A stretch of DNA of 64,000 nt from Kiloniella sp. (GTDB lineage: Bacteria; Pseudomonadota; Alphaproteobacteria; UBA7985). The notes under the pieces are model-generated. The model did not search any database. It worked only from the letters and a program-made list of their open reading frames with translations, and was not told the origin of the DNA. The stretch spans positions 25,505 through 89,504 of the forward strand of contig NZET01000017.1 in NCBI GenBank assembly GCA_002690455.1. The letters run 5' to 3'. Below, in pieces: positions 2,231 to 57,821 of the stretch (positions are counted from its first letter, which is position 1; each line of letters starts with the position of its first letter). The position numbers and the translations under genes are program-made.

Positions 2231-4099
2231 TCAGGCCGGCGGCACTTCGGCTGCGTCTTCGATAATCATTTGCACGTTACGTCCGCCTCGGTACTCGTCG
2301 AGCGCGAGGTGTCCGGCGACATGGAGCGGGCGGTCGCTTCGGTGCAGCAGGGCATGGCCCAGTGGGGTTTCTACCGCGCGAAAGGCGATAGAGCGCACCC
2401 GAGCGCCATCGGAGCCTTCGAGTTGCACAGCGATGTGCTTCTCGCCCACAATGGTGGCGTTGGATACGCGCGGGCGGGTCAGGGCGACGCGCGGTCGGGG
2501 GTTGCCCTGGCCGAAGGGTTCCATGCCTTGGAATACTTGTACGGTTTCAAAGGTAACGGCCGCCGGGGTCATGGCGACATCAAACTCCATGACATCCGGG
2601 TCGGGGGCCTGGTCCAGACGGGCGGTGACTTCGGCTTCCATGAAGGCGACAAACTCTGGCCACTTGTCCTCACTGATGGCGAGGCCCGCGGCCATGGCGT
2701 GCCCCCCGCCTTCGAGCAGTAGGCCACGTTCGCGCGCTTCGAGGATCAAGCCACCGAGGTTAATGCCGGGAATCGAACGGCCCGAGCCTTTGCCGATGCC
2801 GCCTTCGAAGCTGACGACGATAGCGGGGCGGCGGTGGTTGCCCTTGAGCCGTCCGGCGACCACGCCGATGACGCCGGGATGCCAGCCTTCTCCGCCAGCG
2901 ATCAGAATCGGGGGAACGACAGCGCGGTTCTCCAGCGCCACGCGCTTGGCCTGCTTCATCACGTCGGCTTCGACCGCGCGGCGTTCGAGGTTCAGGTCAT
3001 CCAGCCGTTGTGCCAGTTCCTTGGCGCGTTCGGGGTCATCGGTGGACAGCAGGTCCGAACCAATCCAACTTTCGCCCATGCGTGAACCAGCGTTGATCCG
3101 TGGGCCAAGGTCGAAGCCGAAGACCTCTGGCGTCAGCGCGCCGTTGCGTCCGGTGATCTCGCGCAGGGCCTTCATGCCGGGGTTGGCCCAGCGTTCGAGG
3201 ATCTTTAGCCCTTGGCTGACGTACACGCGGTTGAGGCCGAGCAGCGGAACCACGTCGCACACTGTTCCCATGGCCACAACGTCGAGCATGCTCATCAGGT
3301 CCGGTGGGGTGATGCCGCGGTCTTCATAGAAATTCATGTCCCGCAGGGCGCGGTTGAGCGCCACGAGGAACAGGAAGGTCAGGCCACAGGCGGCGATAAT
3401 GCCGTGCTCGCTGGGGTCATCGAGGCGGTTCGGGTTTACGACCGCCACCGCGGGTGGCAGGACTTCGGGTGCCATATGGTGGTCAAGCACAATGACATCC
3501 GCACCGGCACCGTTCGCAGCTTCGACAGCATCGTTGGCCATAACCCCACAATCGAGGGTGATAATCAGGTTCGCCCCGTCGAGCGCAAGCTGCCGCATGC
3601 TCTCGACCTTGGGGCCATAGCCTTCTTTGTGTCGGTCAGGGATATAGCAGCGGACTTCCTGGCCCAAAGCGCGGAAGAAGCGGCGGACCAGTGCCGAACT
3701 GGTCGCGCCATCAACATCGAAATCGGCGAAAAGTGCGACTGACTCCTCGGTCAAGATTGCCGCGATCGTCCGCTCGATCGCCGTGTCCATGTCGAGCAAG
3801 TGTGACGGATCCGGCAGGACATCACGCAGGCGGGGTTCAAGAAAGTGCTGCACCCGCTCAGGGTCGACCGATCGTGACGCCAGCGCCCGGGCGACGGGGG
3901 CGGGCAGGCCAGTTCGCGCGGCGATTTCAGTGGCAACTTCCTCACTGGCCTTGCGTGAGACCCAACGGTTCCCCGTGACCGAACGATGTACACCCAAAAA
4001 GGCATCATCGGCGCGGAAACCGGTCGCAGTCAGCGCTCCGCGTTTGACCGCATCAGCGTCTTTGACGAGCGCGGTGGAGAGAGAAGGGTCTTGGTTCAC
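2231..4099 (-). CDS. recJ: single-stranded-DNA-specific exonuclease RecJ
   Basis: RecJ degrades single-stranded DNA 5'->3' in recombination and mismatch repair. The 622-aa length is normal. The DHH phosphoesterase motifs are present: ALFADFDVDGATSS (the DxD pair), LDCG, VLDHH (the DHH motif) and, in the DHHA1 half, GEGWHPGVIGVVAGR and GGGHAMAAG. A C-terminal OB-like domain follows. The start at 4099 is a GTG; no in-frame ATG lies between it and the conserved region, so an alternative start would have to be another rare codon. The frame has a long antisense open frame opposite it that I regard as a codon-bias shadow. Confidence 0.95.
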   Translation of the reverse strand: MNQDPSLSTALVKDADAVKRGALTATGFRADDAFLGVHRSVTGNRWVSRKASEEVATEIAARTGLPAPVARALASRSVDPERVQHFLEPRLRDVLPDPSHLLDMDTAIERTIAAILTEESVALFADFDVDGATSSALVRRFFRALGQEVRCYIPDRHKEGYGPKVESMRQLALDGANLIITLDCGVMANDAVEAANGAGADVIVLDHHMAPEVLPPAVAVVNPNRLDDPSEHGIIAACGLTFLFLVALNRALRDMNFYEDRGITPPDLMSMLDVVAMGTVCDVVPLLGLNRVYVSQGLKILERWANPGMKALREITGRNGALTPEVFGFDLGPRINAGSRMGESWIGSDLLSTDDPERAKELAQRLDDLNLERRAVEADVMKQAKRVALENRAVVPPILIAGGEGWHPGVIGVVAGRLKGNHRRPAIVVSFEGGIGKGSGRSIPGINLGGLILEARERGLLLEGGGHAMAAGLAISEDKWPEFVAFMEAEVTARLDQAPDPDVMEFDVAMTPAAVTFETVQVFQGMEPFGQGNPRPRVALTRPRVSNATIVGEKHIAVQLEGSDGARVRSIAFRAVETPLGHALLHRSDRPLHVAGHLALDEYRGGRNVQMIIEDAAEVPPA

Positions 4100-6486: not shown

Positions 6487-8118
6487 TTATTTTGATTGTG
6501 CTGAAGGGCAAAGGCCATCCGCGCGGCGCGGACGGTCAACTCTGAACAGGTAAGGTGTATCGATGGTAACCGCGCCATGGGTCACCGGCCACGGGCCAAG
6601 GGGTCTGAGGCTGCAATACGCATCCTGAAGCGCCGCGCGACCGCTCGCGGCGTCCGCCGCGAGCACTAAGAGCGGCGTGGCTTGTGCCGTCCGCGTCGCA
6701 TCGTTCGGATCTGCGAACAGCCGGAGCTGATGCGGTCGGGGGTCGGTGCCGACTGACGGGCGAACGTGGTTCTGATGAAAGGCCAATTGGCTGGCCAGCA
6801 GATAATAGTGTCCGACGATGGAATGACCGGGATAAACCGCATCTCGGTACGCTTGCAGGTCTGCAATGGCTGACCGCCAACCGTATAAATCGCGGGCATT
6901 CTCTAGCATCCAGCGCGGTTCCCGCATCGCCAGCGGGATGAGAAGAAGCAGGCAAAGCACGGCTCCGGTGGTCACTGACAGCGTGCGACCGGCCCCTTTG
7001 AGCCATGCAGGGCCGGCACCGGGCCAGCGACTGGCCGCGACCGCTGTCAACACTAAGGTGCTGGGGAGTAGCCAGTTCAGGAGCACGTCCCGCGCCAGGC
7101 TAAGGCCAAAGATGAACAAGAGGGGCAAGGCGATAAACAGGGTGATGCCAAGCCTTTCGATACGCTGATAATCGGGCCGTTTGCCTGGCTTTACCGGAGC
7201 AGGCCACCCCGGAATTCGAAACAGTACCAGTGCGCCCGGTCCGGCCAGCACCGCAACACCGATGGCCACCAGACCAAAACGACCCAGACGGTCGCCCAAC
7301 CTGTCGGGTTCGGCGGTGAGATGTTCCGTGCTGACGTGGCGGAAAGTTACCCAGCCATGGTTGGCGTTCCAGACCACGAACAGCGCCACTGCCGCCAAAA
7401 CAAACAGAGCTGAGATCCAAGGGCCAGGCCGGGTCAGTTGCGCTCGCCCCGAAGGAGAGATCAACAACGCTAGTCCAAAGGCTGCAATCCAGAGGGCAGC
7501 CGAGACTTTGGCCGAGAAGGCCAGCCCGAGAGCCAGGCCCGTTACCAACCACAAGGCCATCGATCCCTGTTGCACGGCGCGGGTGCCCAAGAGTAGTCCG
7601 AGACTAAGACAGGTCATCATAACGGTATCGTGGACGTAGAACAGCCCGAGCCCCCACAGGCCAGGACTGGTGATGAAGAGGAACAATAACCCGTTCGTTG
7701 CCTGCTTCAGCTGGCCGTCATCAGCCGTCGATACCGTATGAGACGCCGCAGACAGGTCCAAGGCCAACCGGGCGAGAAATGCGCTGGTCAGCAGGGTCAG
7801 TCCGCCGGAAGCCAGCCGCAAAACCCATGCTTGATCCCCGAGTAGGCTGACAAAAGGCCACAGTAGCCATCCGACCAGAAACGGCTGGTCGTAGTAGCCA
7901 TAATCAAGCCGCTGGCTCCAGGTCCAATAGTAGGCCTCGTCATGGATTGGTCCGGTGCCGAGCATCAGGGTAAAGCGGATCACCGCCATGCACCCCAGCG
8001 CCAGCCAAAGTGCTGGAGGCAGGCGCCAGAGGGGCGGCTTGTATTGGTTTATGCGTTCAGCCGCGGTTGTCGTCTCAACTGGGTCCAGGGGGCTTGCCAT
8101 AGAAGTAGCGGTTGACAC
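6487..8118 (-). CDS. GT39/ArnT-like membrane glycosyltransferase
   Basis: A 543-aa polytopic membrane protein of the PMT/ArnT (GT-C fold) group, which transfers sugars from polyprenyl-phosphate donors to lipids or proteins at the periplasmic face. After a cytosolic N-terminus and a first membrane segment (~38-55) comes the hallmark acidic loop GTGPIHDEAYYWTW, followed by DYGYYDQP, the usual GT39 pairing. About ten further hydrophobic segments run to residue ~400, then a soluble periplasmic tail. It starts 3 bases after the recO stop, so the two are probably co-transcribed. The acceptor cannot be deduced; lipid A or a glycolipid is the default guess. Confidence 0.83.
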   Translation of the reverse strand: MSTATSMASPLDPVETTTAAERINQYKPPLWRLPPALWLALGCMAVIRFTLMLGTGPIHDEAYYWTWSQRLDYGYYDQPFLVGWLLWPFVSLLGDQAWVLRLASGGLTLLTSAFLARLALDLSAASHTVSTADDGQLKQATNGLLFLFITSPGLWGLGLFYVHDTVMMTCLSLGLLLGTRAVQQGSMALWLVTGLALGLAFSAKVSAALWIAAFGLALLISPSGRAQLTRPGPWISALFVLAAVALFVVWNANHGWVTFRHVSTEHLTAEPDRLGDRLGRFGLVAIGVAVLAGPGALVLFRIPGWPAPVKPGKRPDYQRIERLGITLFIALPLLFIFGLSLARDVLLNWLLPSTLVLTAVAASRWPGAGPAWLKGAGRTLSVTTGAVLCLLLLIPLAMREPRWMLENARDLYGWRSAIADLQAYRDAVYPGHSIVGHYYLLASQLAFHQNHVRPSVGTDPRPHQLRLFADPNDATRTAQATPLLVLAADAASGRAALQDAYCSLRPLGPWPVTHGAVTIDTPYLFRVDRPRRADGLCPSAQSK

Positions 8119-52656: not shown

Positions 52657-53565
52657 CTACTCCAAAGCCTTAAGCAGCGCGTCGATGTTGTGGCGCATCA
52701 TGCTCAGGTAAGAGGTCGCTGGCCCCCCCCGGACAGAAAGGGCGTCGGAGTACAGCCGCCCGCCGATGCGAAGACCTGTCTCTGCAGCAATTTGGTTAAC
52801 CAAATCCGGGTTGGTGATGTTTTCAACAAACAGTCCGACTACGGCTTGTTCACGGATCTGCTGGATGAGCGCCGCCAATTCGCGTGCAGATGGCTCGGAT
52901 TCGGTGTTAACCCCAAGCGGCGCGAGAAAGCGGAGACCGAATTGGGCTTCAAAATAGCCAAAGGCATCGTGCCCAGTGACAATTGTGCGGCGACCTTCGG
53001 GCAGAGCGTCGAAGCGGGCGGAGGCTTCAGCAAAGAGGGTGTCAATCTCAGCCTCAAAGCCAGCTGCGTTGGCGGCAAAATTGTCCGCATATTTCGGCGC
53101 CAGAGCACTCAGGCCGGCGGCAATGCTCGCCGCATAGTGCGTGGCGTTCGCCAGCGCGTTCCACGCATGAGGGTCTGGCTCGCCTTCGATCAGCAAAGGC
53201 ACGATAGCCTCGGTCGCCGTGATCACGGGTGCGCTGGCTTCAGCGGCGGCGATCAGGTCGCTGATCCAGCCTTCAAAACCAAGCCCGTTTATGATGATGA
53301 TGTCGGCTGCTGCGACCGCTCGGGCATCACTGACTGTGGGGGAGTAGACGTGTGCATCACTGTCCGGGCCAACGATGCTGGTCACGGTGACGTGTTCGCC
53401 ACCGACCACAGCAATTATATCGGCGAGGATGGAGAAGCTGGCCACAGCGTTTATGGTGTCAGTTTCGGCCTGTGCCTGGTTCGCAAAGGCTGTGATCCCG
53501 GTCAACGCGATAAGACCAAGAAACAGGCGGACCAGCGGGCCGACCAATTGAATATTGTTGCTCAT
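52657..53565 (-). CDS. metal ABC transporter substrate-binding protein (cluster A-I)
   Basis: Periplasmic metal-binding protein of 302 aa with a signal peptide (hydrophobic core LVRLFLGLIALTGITAFA, cleavage near AQA-ET). Counted from the longer frame, the ligands are His74 (DSDAHVYSPT), His135 (DPHAWN), His201 (GHDAFGYF) and Asp276 (LYSDALS), an HHHD set as in TroA-like proteins. The His-rich loop common in true ZnuA is missing. ATG 53565 has GGAG upstream. It is the last gene of the operon. Standard annotation would say zinc or manganese; the riboswitch upstream argues for cobalt. Confidence 0.88.
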   Translation of the reverse strand: MSNNIQLVGPLVRLFLGLIALTGITAFANQAQAETDTINAVASFSILADIIAVVGGEHVTVTSIVGPDSDAHVYSPTVSDARAVAAADIIIINGLGFEGWISDLIAAAEASAPVITATEAIVPLLIEGEPDPHAWNALANATHYAASIAAGLSALAPKYADNFAANAAGFEAEIDTLFAEASARFDALPEGRRTIVTGHDAFGYFEAQFGLRFLAPLGVNTESEPSARELAALIQQIREQAVVGLFVENITNPDLVNQIAAETGLRIGGRLYSDALSVRGGPATSYLSMMRHNIDALLKALE

Positions 53566-53604
53566 GATCAATCTCCAAAAATACTGTATTTGGTTGGACC
53601 GGTT

Positions 53605-54450
53605 CTAATCAGGTGCACGGAACCTTCTGATCAGGTTGAGGCCGTTTTGACCGATGGCTAGCGATACGAAAAAGACGAGGCCAGCGACCAGAATAATGGC
53701 GGGGCCGGAGGGGACATTGTCGAGCCAGAAGGAGAGCAACAGCCCCAGCAGTCCGCTGCCGGCACTAAAGGCGAACGCAAGCAGTATCATGGGAGTGAGT
53801 GCGTTGACCCAGTACCGTGCTGCAGTCGCTGGTACAATCATCAGCCCCACCGCCATAAGCGTTCCAAGCGCACGAAAACCAGCAATTAGGTTGAGAACGA
53901 CGAGGACCATGAATAGCGACCGGGTTAGCCAGCCACGCTGGGACTGCGATTGTGCAAAGGCCGGATCGACGCTTTGCAGCACCAGCGGCCGCAAAATCAA
54001 GGCTATGACCAGCAGCGTTAGCGTTGTCGAGCTGCCGATCAGCACCAGTGTACCGTCGCTGAGGCTGAGCACGTTACCGAATAAGAAGCTTTCCAGATTG
54101 ACGGCGGTGCCGCGTACAGAGAGCAGGAAGATCCCTCCAGCCAGCGCAAGGAGGTACAACGTAGCCATACTCGCATCTTCTCGAAGCAGCGTTAATCGCG
54201 ACAGCAAGGTCGATGCGAGCGCCACACTCAGCCCGGCGATCAATCCGCCCAGCGTCATCGATAACACAGACAGCCCTGCCACCGCGTAGGCCAGCGCGAT
54301 CCCGGGAATGGCCGCATGACTCATGGCCTCGCCCGCAAGTGACAGGCGACGGAGCACCAGAAAACAGCCCACTGGCGCCATGCCTAGCGACAGGATAATC
54401 ACCGCTGCGATTGCCTTACGCATGAAGGCGAATTCTAAGAATTCAAACAT
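53605..54450 (-). CDS. metal ABC transporter permease (ZnuB/TroC family)
   Basis: A 281-aa inner-membrane ABC-3 family permease with about eight membrane segments. Family blocks are MRKAIAAVIILSLGMAPVGCFLVLRRLSLAGEAMSHAAIPG and, later, ALGTLMAVGLMIVPATAARYW. I start it at ATG 54450, which overlaps the ATPase gene by 8 bases; the longer frame from 54492 lies within that gene. It forms the membrane pore for the metal taken from the binding protein. Confidence 0.9.
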   Translation of the reverse strand: MFEFLEFAFMRKAIAAVIILSLGMAPVGCFLVLRRLSLAGEAMSHAAIPGIALAYAVAGLSVLSMTLGGLIAGLSVALASTLLSRLTLLREDASMATLYLLALAGGIFLLSVRGTAVNLESFLFGNVLSLSDGTLVLIGSSTTLTLLVIALILRPLVLQSVDPAFAQSQSQRGWLTRSLFMVLVVLNLIAGFRALGTLMAVGLMIVPATAARYWVNALTPMILLAFAFSAGSGLLGLLLSFWLDNVPSGPAIILVAGLVFFVSLAIGQNGLNLIRRFRAPD

Positions 54451-55201
54451 ACTTTCCGACCTTAGCGGCTGAAGTCGAGGCTGCAGTGGCATTCAGGTAA
54501 GGCTTATCAGCGGCCATATAGCCCAGACCTACCAGTTGCTCTGGGATTAGAACCTCATGCGTGGGGCCGAAGGCGGCGCCCCCGCGTCCCATCAGCAGAA
54601 CCGAGGAACAGTGCTCAAGGACCGCCGACAGATTATGCATGACCAGGATCAGGGCGCACCCCTGCCGACTCCAGTCAAGGATCAGGGCCATTAAGTCGGC
54701 CTCCGTACTTTGGTCGACGGCGGCAAAAGGTTCATCGAGGATGATCAGTTGCGCATCCTGCATGATAGTCCTGGCGAACAACGCACGCTGCAGCTGTCCC
54801 GCGGAGAGTTGATGCAGGGGCATATCGGCTGCATCGGCAAGGCCCACGCGCTCAAGGGCGGCTTCGGCGTTCCGACGTGCGCGCCGCCCGGCGCCTTCGA
54901 AGAAGCCAAGCTGCGACCAGCCGCCAGTCGCCGCCAGGTCGATGACCCGCATGGGAAAACGGCGGTCGAAGTCGGTGAGCTGCCCGAGGTAGCCCACCGG
55001 GGTGGTCGGTCTGCCGGCGTCCCAGCGCAACCGGCCGCCCAGCAGTGGTGTCACGCCAAGGATTGACTTTACCAGCGTCGATTTACCCGAGCCGTTGTAG
55101 CCGATAACCGCGAGGATCTCGCCTGAAGAGAGGGAAAAGTCGACCTTGCTGGCAACGGGGTCGCCGCCATAGCCGATCACAAGGCCTTCGCCATAAAGCA
55201 C
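54443..55201 (-). CDS. metal ABC transporter ATPase (ZnuC/TroB family)
   Basis: A 252-aa ATPase with Walker A GYNGSGKST, signature LSAGQLQRALFARTI, Walker B LIILDEPFAAVD and an H-loop in LILVMHNLS. I place the start at GTG 55201, two bases after the stop of the 49-codon ORF, because the family N-terminus begins at LYGEGLVIGYGG. GTG 55240 would add 13 unrelated residues; neither has a strong ribosome site. Translational coupling to the small ORF would explain that. Confidence 0.88.
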   Translation of the reverse strand: MLYGEGLVIGYGGDPVASKVDFSLSSGEILAVIGYNGSGKSTLVKSILGVTPLLGGRLRWDAGRPTTPVGYLGQLTDFDRRFPMRVIDLAATGGWSQLGFFEGAGRRARRNAEAALERVGLADAADMPLHQLSAGQLQRALFARTIMQDAQLIILDEPFAAVDQSTEADLMALILDWSRQGCALILVMHNLSAVLEHCSSVLLMGRGGAAFGPTHEVLIPEQLVGLGYMAADKPYLNATAASTSAAKVGKYV

Positions 55202-55203
55202 CC

Positions 55204-55353
55204 TCAGGAAAGAATAAGCAGGGCGAGCCCGGCCCAGCACAGGGTGGCAAGGGCAGCGGCACCGCTCAGCAGCATGGCGCGCGAGGGGGCCGTCATGTCA
55301 AGGCCGACAGATTCGCGTGACACAGCTGTCGCGCGGTCTTCAAAAATGGTCAT
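55204..55353 (-). CDS. 49-aa single-span membrane protein, first ORF under the B12 riboswitch
   Basis: A small ORF with an excellent ribosome site (AGGAGAG, then ATG 55353). It has a polar N-terminus ([19 protein letters not shown]) and one hydrophobic helix at ~27-48 ([22 protein letters not shown]), ending Ser-stop. The stop is two bases before the preferred ATPase start. It is not recognisable as CbtB, which carries C-terminal histidines, or as any other known small transporter part. I infer either a small accessory subunit of the importer or a coupling leader. The strong ribosome site and position make it likely to be translated. Confidence 0.65.
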
Positions 55354-55397
55354 GGTCTCTCCTGCAGGGTCACCCGCCCGTGGAAAAGGTTGATCGT

Positions 55398-55620
55398 CAC
55401 TCTGGCAGGTCTTCTGGCTCGCGGGTCTGTGCGCCGTTGCTCCAGCCTTCCCAACGCGATGCCTGGATCAGGCAGCCTGCGTCAGTGGCTATGTTGGAGC
55501 TGCGCTCGCCGCTTACAGTTGCGGGGACAGCCTCGGACTTGGTCCCTGTTGGGTACGCCGCACCGATGTTCCCTATTAAGTCTCCAGCCTTGGACTGTGT
55601 GAGACACCAAAGGTACCTAA
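55398..55620 (-). promoter_or_regulatory. cobalamin riboswitch
   Basis: Read on the minus strand, the conserved blocks appear in the right order: AATAGGGAACATCGGTGCGG (about 55580-55561), CTGTCCCCGCAACTGTAAGC (about 55530-55510), GCCACTG (55489-55483), GGGAAGGC (55452-55445) and the B12 box AGCCAGAAGACCTGCC (55419-55404). Boundaries are approximate. The AGGAG ribosome site of the 49-codon ORF lies ~40 bases downstream, and its GCAGGAG could pair with CCTGC of the B12 box, which suggests control of translation. Binding of adenosylcobalamin would switch the importer operon off. Confidence 0.93.
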
Positions 55621-55775
55621 GACCCTGCCGGAGATTGCCGCGACCGGCAAGAAACCGCGCGGCGCTAAATCATCTATATGCGACTTGCGTTGGTCGTACG
55701 CCCCTGTCGGGCTGCCCCTGTGCCTTGCGAGGGTCTTGTGCTAGGCCGAATACAGAATTTCCCGGACGACCGACC

Positions 55776-57821
55776 ATGTCAGAACAAAGCGACGACCGCA
55801 AAAGCCTCTATACCGCCGCCGATCTGGAGGGCGTCGAGCACCTCGACAGCCAGCCAGGGCAAGCGCCGTTTGTGCGCGGTCCCTATGCTTCTATGTACAC
55901 GCAGCGCCCTTGGACCATCCGGCAGTACGCCGGATTTTCAACCGCTGAGGAAAGCAACGCCTTTTACCGACAGGCGCTAGAGGCCGGGCAGCGGGGGCTT
56001 TCCGTCGCCTTCGACCTTGCCACCCATCGCGGTTATGACAGCGATCATCCAAGGGTACGTGGGGACGTCGGAAAGGCCGGTGTTGCTATTGACAGTGTCG
56101 ACGACATGCAGCGGCTGTTCGAAGGCATCGCTTTGCGCGACGTTTCCGTGTCCATGACCATGAACGGTGCCGTGTTGCCGGTGCTGGCCGCCTTTATCGT
56201 TTCCGGCGAGGAACAGGGCGCGGGCCAGGCTGAGTTGGCCGGCACCATCCAGAACGATATTCTTAAAGAGTTCATGGTCCGCAATACCTTCATTTATCCG
56301 CCCCAGCCCAGCCTGCGGATCGTCGGCGATATCATCGAATACACGGCTCAGGCCATGCCGCGGTTCAATTCGATCTCGATCTCCGGTTATCATATGCAGG
56401 AGGCCGGGGCGTCGCTGGTGCAGGAGTTGGCCTTTACCCTCGCTGACGGCCGGGAGTACGTGCGTGCAGCGCTGGCGCGTGGACTGGACGTGGATACCTT
56501 TGCCCCTCGGCTGTCATTCTTCTTTGGGATCGGGATGGATTTCTTTGCCGAGGCAGCGAAGCTGCGTGCAGCGCGGCTGCTGTGGTCCCGGATCATGGAA
56601 GAGTTCAGCCCGCGAAACCCCAAGTCGCTGATGCTGCGCACCCACTGCCAGACTTCGGGCGTGTCGCTGCAGGCCCAGGACCCTTACAATAACATTGTAC
56701 GCACGGCCTTTGAGGCCATGAGTGCGGTGCTCGGTGGAACCCAGAGCCTACACACCAATTCCTTCGACGAGGCCCTCGCGCTACCCACGGCGTTCAGTGC
56801 GCGGATTGCCCGAAATACGCAGCTGATCCTCGCCCACGAAACCGGCGTCACTGACGTGGTCGATCCGCTGGCCGGGTCCTACTACGTTGAGCGGCTGACG
56901 GCTGATCTCGCGGAGCAGGCCTGGGCGCTGATCGAGGAGGTCGAAGCGCGGGGTGGCATGACAAGTGCCATCGAGGCAGGTTGGCCCAAGGCGCAGATTG
57001 AGACCGAGGCGATCCGGCAGCAGGCAGCTATTGATACCGGTGAACGGGTTATCGTTGGGGTCAACCGCTTCGAACGCAACGAAAGTGACGCTGTTGATGT
57101 ACTGGATATTGATAACCACGCCGTTCGGAAGGCGCAGGTCGAGCGGCTGGTGGCGTTGCGCGCCAGTCGTGATGCCGGACGTGTCGACGCATCGCTCGAA
57201 GCGCTTGAACAGGCAGCTCGGTCACAGGGCAATCTGCTCGCGGCTTCAATCGATGCGATGCGCGCCCGGGCGACGGTGGGTGAGGTTAGCGACCGCCTGC
57301 GTGTAGTCTTTGAGGAGTACGACGGTAGCCCGGCGCTGGTTCGCGGGGTCTACGGTGAGGCGCTGGGACAGGATCCGCAGATGCAGACACTGATCGAGAG
57401 GGTTGCCGCGCAGGACGAGACACCGCGGCTGTTTATGGCCAAGCTGGGGCAGGATGGCCACGACCGGGGGGCGCGGGTCATCGCCTCAGCCTTCCTCGAC
57501 TTCGGCTACGCAGTCGAGACCTCTGCGCTGTTTCAAACCCCAGAGGAAGCGGCGGCGCAGGCTATCGCTGCTGGTGCGCACGTGGTTGGGGTATCGTCAC
57601 TGGCGGCCGGGCACAAAACGCTATTGCCCGCACTGATCGACGCCCTGCGCGTGGCGGGGCGAGAGGACATCCTTGTCATCTGTGGCGGTGTCATCCCTGA
57701 ACAGGATTACGCAGCACTGGAAGCTGCTGGAGTGGCGGCAATCTTCGGCCCCGGGACTAATGTCCTCGAAGCTGGCGCTCGGGTGTTGGATCTGGTGATT
57801 GGTAAACGGCGCAACGCCTGA
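55776..57821 (+). CDS. methylmalonyl-CoA mutase
   Basis: Adenosylcobalamin-dependent isomerase of (R)-methylmalonyl-CoA and succinyl-CoA, used in propionate breakdown or in the ethylmalonyl-CoA route. The 681-aa protein has the substrate barrel ([54 protein letters not shown]) and a C-terminal B12 domain from ~545 with [11 protein letters not shown], whose His is the lower cobalt ligand. It lacks about 35-40 N-terminal residues found in longer MutB proteins. I use ATG 55776 (MSEQSDD); the open frame reaches further upstream through the antisense of the riboswitch and is not coding there. It is divergent from the B12-regulated metal importer. Confidence 0.95.

Follow-up and report, generated by a model that had tools for sequence, protein, structure and literature searches.

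B12 synthesis is common among marine alphaproteobacteria, but for a good share of the producers no cobalt importer could be named. A survey found any of CbiMQ, CbtAB or CorA in 76% of Roseobacter genomes (PMC4771312). The 64,000-nucleotide stretch of DNA from Kiloniella sp. that we analysed (the window) contains a cobalamin riboswitch in front of a metal ABC importer, and this raises the question of which metal is imported. A preliminary description made from the letters of the DNA had proposed cobalt. The locus contains the following features.

55776-57821, plus strand: methylmalonyl-CoA mutase large subunit, divergent neighbour (NF006944, 1138.7 bits, cut-off 876)
55387-55626, minus strand: cobalamin (AdoCbl-type) riboswitch aptamer (RF00174, 99.8 bits, E 9.4e-24)
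55355-55381, minus strand: hairpin, probable expression platform (loop CGGGUGA, followed directly by the Shine-Dalgarno sequence GCAGGAG)
55204-55353, minus strand: small single-helix membrane protein of 49 aa, unannotated first gene, with conserved homologues upstream of the ATPase
54443-55201, minus strand: ABC ATPase, probable GTG start (PF00005; best NCBIfam match AztA, 175 bits, cut-off 220)
53605-54450, minus strand: ABC-3 family permease, start ATG at 54450, with 54492 also possible (PF00950, 171 bits; best NCBIfam match AztB, 209.4 bits, cut-off 280)
52657-53565, minus strand: cluster A-I metal-binding protein (PF01297, 260 bits; AztC, 263.5 bits, cut-off 350)

The Rfam model RF00174 matched the window over model positions 1-189 of 189 and scored 99.8 bits, where the gathering cut-off is 31.5. 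Thus, the B12 riboswitch that had been described upstream of the importer genes is real. It was the one family above threshold in an Rfam scan of the whole window, and the element at 55626-55387 (minus strand) is the sole cobalamin riboswitch found in its own genome (1.69 Mb, 63% complete). Downstream of it and on the same strand are four genes encoding, in order, the 49-aa membrane protein, the ATPase, the ABC-3 permease and the binding protein. The last three pass their Pfam cut-offs and make up a cluster A-I importer set. This element controls no cobalamin-synthesis gene; the cob cluster lies in another part of the genome (C16). The divergent methylmalonyl-CoA mutase gene, which the preliminary description did not mention, encodes a B12-dependent enzyme and is outside the control of the riboswitch. 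It is also divergent from the operon at three other loci (L038, L039, L040).

Orthologues of the binding protein have 64-78% identity in genus mates (G007-G010) and 55% identity in a genome from another family (G316), and in all five a riboswitch is located just upstream of the operon. Scanning genome contigs for relatives of the operon gave 80 loci. In most of the closest loci, a motif search found a B12 box and flanking aptamer blocks approximately 2 kb upstream of the binding-protein gene. Rfam confirmed the riboswitch in 11 of 11 motif-positive loci tested and found none in 12 motif-negative or doubtful loci, including one with a weak motif match (L129). With duplicates removed (L096 = L039, L108 = L042), the riboswitch loci other than the window number 36. 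The covariance model confirmed 16 of them, and the remainder were recognised by motif only. These are from the four genus mates, G316 and 31 further loci across the alphaproteobacteria, the further carriers including Ruegeria, Roseibium, Labrenzia, Shimia, Tritonibacter and Filomicrobium.

A quick maximum-likelihood tree of the binding protein placed all 37 riboswitch rows in one clade of 46 rows (SH-aLRT 99). The other rows in this clade are seven linked to a CobW-family GTPase, a neighbour that is the only basis of the tree label "Zn" and a weak proxy, and two that are unassigned (L119 and the truncated L103). Riboswitch-free members are nested within the clade, including L133, which has a Zur gene, a Zur box and HisI, and L097, L110, L124, L130, L138 and L141, which have a CobW-family GTPase. 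Nested members such as L133 demonstrate a switch of regulation inside the clade, so the binding protein alone does not announce cobalt. Beside riboswitch-free AztABC-like operons (L097, L110, L133, L134, L141 and others), a CobW-family GTPase gene followed by a gene for a WD40-repeat protein is a recurrent pair; the WD40-repeat protein matched no NCBIfam name.

The leaders of the riboswitch loci have a second conserved element. In 36 leaders, a hairpin with the loop CGGG(G)UG is located 3' of the aptamer, with the 3' strand of the stem overlapping the first Shine-Dalgarno sequence or adjoining it. The stem is GGG/CCC in the window and 4-6 bp in most relatives. Across the 36 leaders the stem remains paired in 171 of 180 cells, and several exchanges are compensatory. 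A strand-permutation control, which did not remove relatedness, reached a maximum of 154 paired cells in 2000 trials. B12 riboswitches elsewhere use a loop-loop mechanism. The hairpin loop CGGG and the aptamer loop CCCG are complementary, which agrees with the mechanism known in other B12 riboswitches (PMC7689651). The stem in the window is short, with three standard pairs only, so the control of translation of the first gene by this hairpin is putative. The short stem and an isolated fold no stabler than shuffles could also be explained by a riboswitch that is real and has decayed or become uncoupled in this lineage, leaving the operon effectively constitutive. However, the aptamer is full length with a high score, genus mates L040 and L041 have an intact form of this hairpin, and the loop and Shine-Dalgarno sequence in the window are unchanged, which makes this explanation extremely unlikely. 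With a working riboswitch, plentiful adenosylcobalamin would bind the leader RNA, and a loop-loop contact would then stabilise the hairpin beside the first ribosome-binding site. This would block translation of the small gene and of those coupled to it, and uptake would be turned on when B12 is low. At three loci from Roseibium/Labrenzia and Ruegeria (L101:3944-4084, L109:3934-4092 and L128:3940-4101), a further short ORF, possibly a leader peptide, lies right after the hairpin and before the small membrane protein.

The small membrane protein was also absent from the preliminary description. Its ORF has a clear Shine-Dalgarno sequence and a stop codon 2 nt before the start of the ATPase gene, and most pairs of relatives have an excess of differences at the third codon position. 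Homologues in the same position in genus mates have 71, 67, 50 and 47% identity. With the exception of L106, all riboswitch loci had a match to an HMM of the protein directly upstream of the ATPase. Since most of these loci were used to build the HMM, independent support comes from the loci left out of it. Those matched were L136, the contig-end genus mate L093 and six riboswitch-free loci (L097, L110, L119, L124, L133 and L138; E 3e-12 to 2e-6). In the consensus, a short N-terminal stretch is followed by a (C/N)LTE-S motif and a single hydrophobic helix, in which a Trp is invariant. Searches of Pfam and NCBIfam gave no confident match, and we therefore did not assign the protein to CbtB or another known family. 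We also rejected it as a cobalt marker because riboswitch-free relatives have it too; in Zur-box operons of Bradyrhizobium and Tardiphaga the equivalent small protein has a His-rich tail. The tail is N-terminal and strongly His-rich in one-helix proteins directly upstream of the ATPase at L151:4135-4350, L158:4150-4359, L043:4071-4307, L175:4006-4281 and L142:4146-4355, all in Zur-box AztABC-like operons of Bradyrhizobium, Tardiphaga and G349. We infer that the 49-aa protein is an accessory subunit of the importer. As a conserved small membrane protein that has no family model, it could represent a new type of ABC-importer subunit.

The nearest known system is AztABCD, the zinc importer of Paracoccus denitrificans, which provides the nearest NCBIfam names for all three proteins and is nearest in both sequence and fold. 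The best PDB match of the binding protein by sequence is 5kzj, a loop-deletion mutant of Paracoccus AztC (E 3e-71), and AztC is among the best fold matches of the AlphaFold model (mean pLDDT 78.5). The ligand set of the binding protein (H74, H135, H201 and D276, numbered from the TTG at 53571) is the same in AztC and in nearly all relatives, and the Z-loop sequence GVxTESE is kept. AztC is zinc-specific (PMC7731109). We rejected the first-shell ligands as a cobalt-specific feature because HHHD is also the set of zinc-binding AztC, and no first-shell differences were found between riboswitch loci and relatives. Only scattered alignment columns separate the riboswitch rows from the seven nested rows that lack a riboswitch, and none of these columns is at a metal ligand. 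By contrast with AztABCD, the window proteins are below all three of the family cut-offs, the binding protein has no His-bearing D-loop, the operon has a B12 riboswitch instead of a Zur box with no AztD noted, and the first gene encodes the extra one-helix protein.

ZnuABC, the name that an automatic annotation would choose, belongs to the same superfamily. However, the binding protein scored 77.3 of 268 bits against the ZnuA equivalog. It had been described as lacking the His-rich loop of ZnuA, and this is true: the spacing to DPHAW is a minimal 43 residues with no loop histidine. The absence of the loop had also served as a premise for cobalt. This is not diagnostic because some relatives linked to Zur or CobW, including Zur-box Bradyrhizobium, are loopless too, and we rejected loop absence as a cobalt marker.

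The cobaltochelatase CobN was matched in the window's own genome, five genus mates and G316. It was also matched in all 30 other riboswitch genomes searched, above the cut-off in 29 and below it in G421. The cob cluster of the own genome contains cobI, cbiB, cobQ, cobO, cobW, cobU/P, cbiD and cobB, with no importer in the stretch read. Neither CbiM (PF01891) nor CbtA (PF09490) was matched in this 63% complete genome, and CbiM had no match in six genus genomes and G316. Among the 30 further riboswitch genomes, CbiM was absent in 27 and CbtA in 29 (carriers only counted). The two other families of the same order that were tested have CbiM, and these had no match to the binding protein at the threshold used.

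With a threshold of ≤2 mismatches, an upstream Zur box was found in 0 of 36 riboswitch loci compared to 33 of 65 outside relatives (Fisher p 1.6e-8, not corrected for relatedness), and the window had no match at ≤3 mismatches. Genus mates G006 and G008 have a second AztC-like importer that combines a His-rich loop with a Zur box, suggesting that zinc is served separately in these genomes; in G007 and G010 the second importer is at a contig end, and the Zur-box statement covers G006 and G008. At two genus-mate loci (L073 at ~5772, L076 at ~9990), the second AztC-like importer has a very long loop rich in His, Asp and Glu and a Zur-box-like site, and Gly replaces the Asp ligand. An alternative is that the window operon encodes a zinc importer, or a broad Zn/Co importer, that is raised at low B12 to supply isoenzymes that do without B12, for example MetE, a zinc enzyme. 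The HHHD ligands, the close kin in Zur, HisI and CobW settings and the known control of B12-independent isozymes by B12 riboswitches are consistent with this. By contrast, a MetE search that covered the six genus genomes and G316 gave no match, the riboswitch loci lack Zur boxes, and G006 and G008 have the separate Zur-box, His-loop importer. We thus consider zinc unlikely.

It is also conceivable that the operon imports manganese or iron to supply class I ribonucleotide reductase under conditions that disable the class II enzyme, which depends on B12. In published work cluster A-I proteins carry Zn, Mn or Fe, and those of Group III are usually of the Mn/Fe type (PMC7731109). Beside the operon at L117 (Tritonibacter aquimaris) there is a second, divergent cobalamin riboswitch (3426-3617, minus strand, 134 bits) before ORFs that we read by eye as nrdI, nrdE and nrdF. 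These nrdIEF-like ORFs have their own B12 riboswitch, and the manganese idea may apply there. However, 32 of the 37 riboswitch genomes, among them all six from the genus and G316, have no class I small subunit (PF00268), and the HHHD set is of the AztC type rather than the Glu-containing Mn/Fe set. This makes manganese or iron very unlikely for the window operon. Together, the absence of MetE and of class I ribonucleotide reductase disfavours supply of zinc or manganese to B12-independent enzymes.

The conservation of the riboswitch, the presence of cobN, the absence of CbiM and CbtA from most carriers, the lack of a Zur box and the absence of MetE from the genomes searched and of class I ribonucleotide reductase from most carriers support the earlier proposal of cobalt. 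On these genomic grounds it is probable that the operon encodes a B12-repressed cobalt importer for B12 synthesis that was derived from a Zur-regulated zinc importer. The cluster A-I periplasmic protein would bind Co2+, the ABC-3 permease and ATPase would carry it into the cell with high affinity, and the one-helix protein would be an accessory subunit. Such a system would have originated when an AztABC-like, Zur-regulated zinc importer was brought under B12 control.

B12-riboswitch cobalt importers are already known. CbtJKL from Sinorhizobium meliloti likewise imports cobalt by an ABC-type system and is controlled by an adenosylcobalamin riboswitch (PMC7689651), but CbtJ is BtuF-like, whereas the window has a PF01297 protein (cluster A-I, its only Pfam match) and a PF00950 permease. 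CbiMNQO and CbtAB also link cobalt transport to B12 synthesis and B12 riboswitches; they belong to unrelated protein families and are largely absent from genomes with the window-type operon. In the literature, which we covered incompletely, we found no B12-riboswitch-controlled ZnuABC or AztABC operon, no report of a cobalt importer of this type from the cluster A-I/ABC-3 class and none of the small subunit. The cluster A-I/ABC-3 class has been described so far only for Zn, Mn and Fe. We give about even chances to a cobalt importer family within this class that has a dedicated one-helix subunit and in which the Zur box was exchanged for a B12 riboswitch, with reversal in some lineages of the clade. 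If so, proteins labelled as zinc, manganese or TroA-type would need re-annotation, and models of the supply of cobalt and B12 to algae would change. Closely related importers under zinc or B12 control would also provide a natural set for studying how a metal site chooses Co over Zn.

Extra cobalamin riboswitches occur near the operon at three loci: L122:2116-2333 (plus strand), L128 at ~7088-7106 (plus strand, motif only) and L109:3399-3586 (minus strand). The one at L122 precedes a porin-like ORF and the one at L128 precedes antiporter-like ORFs.
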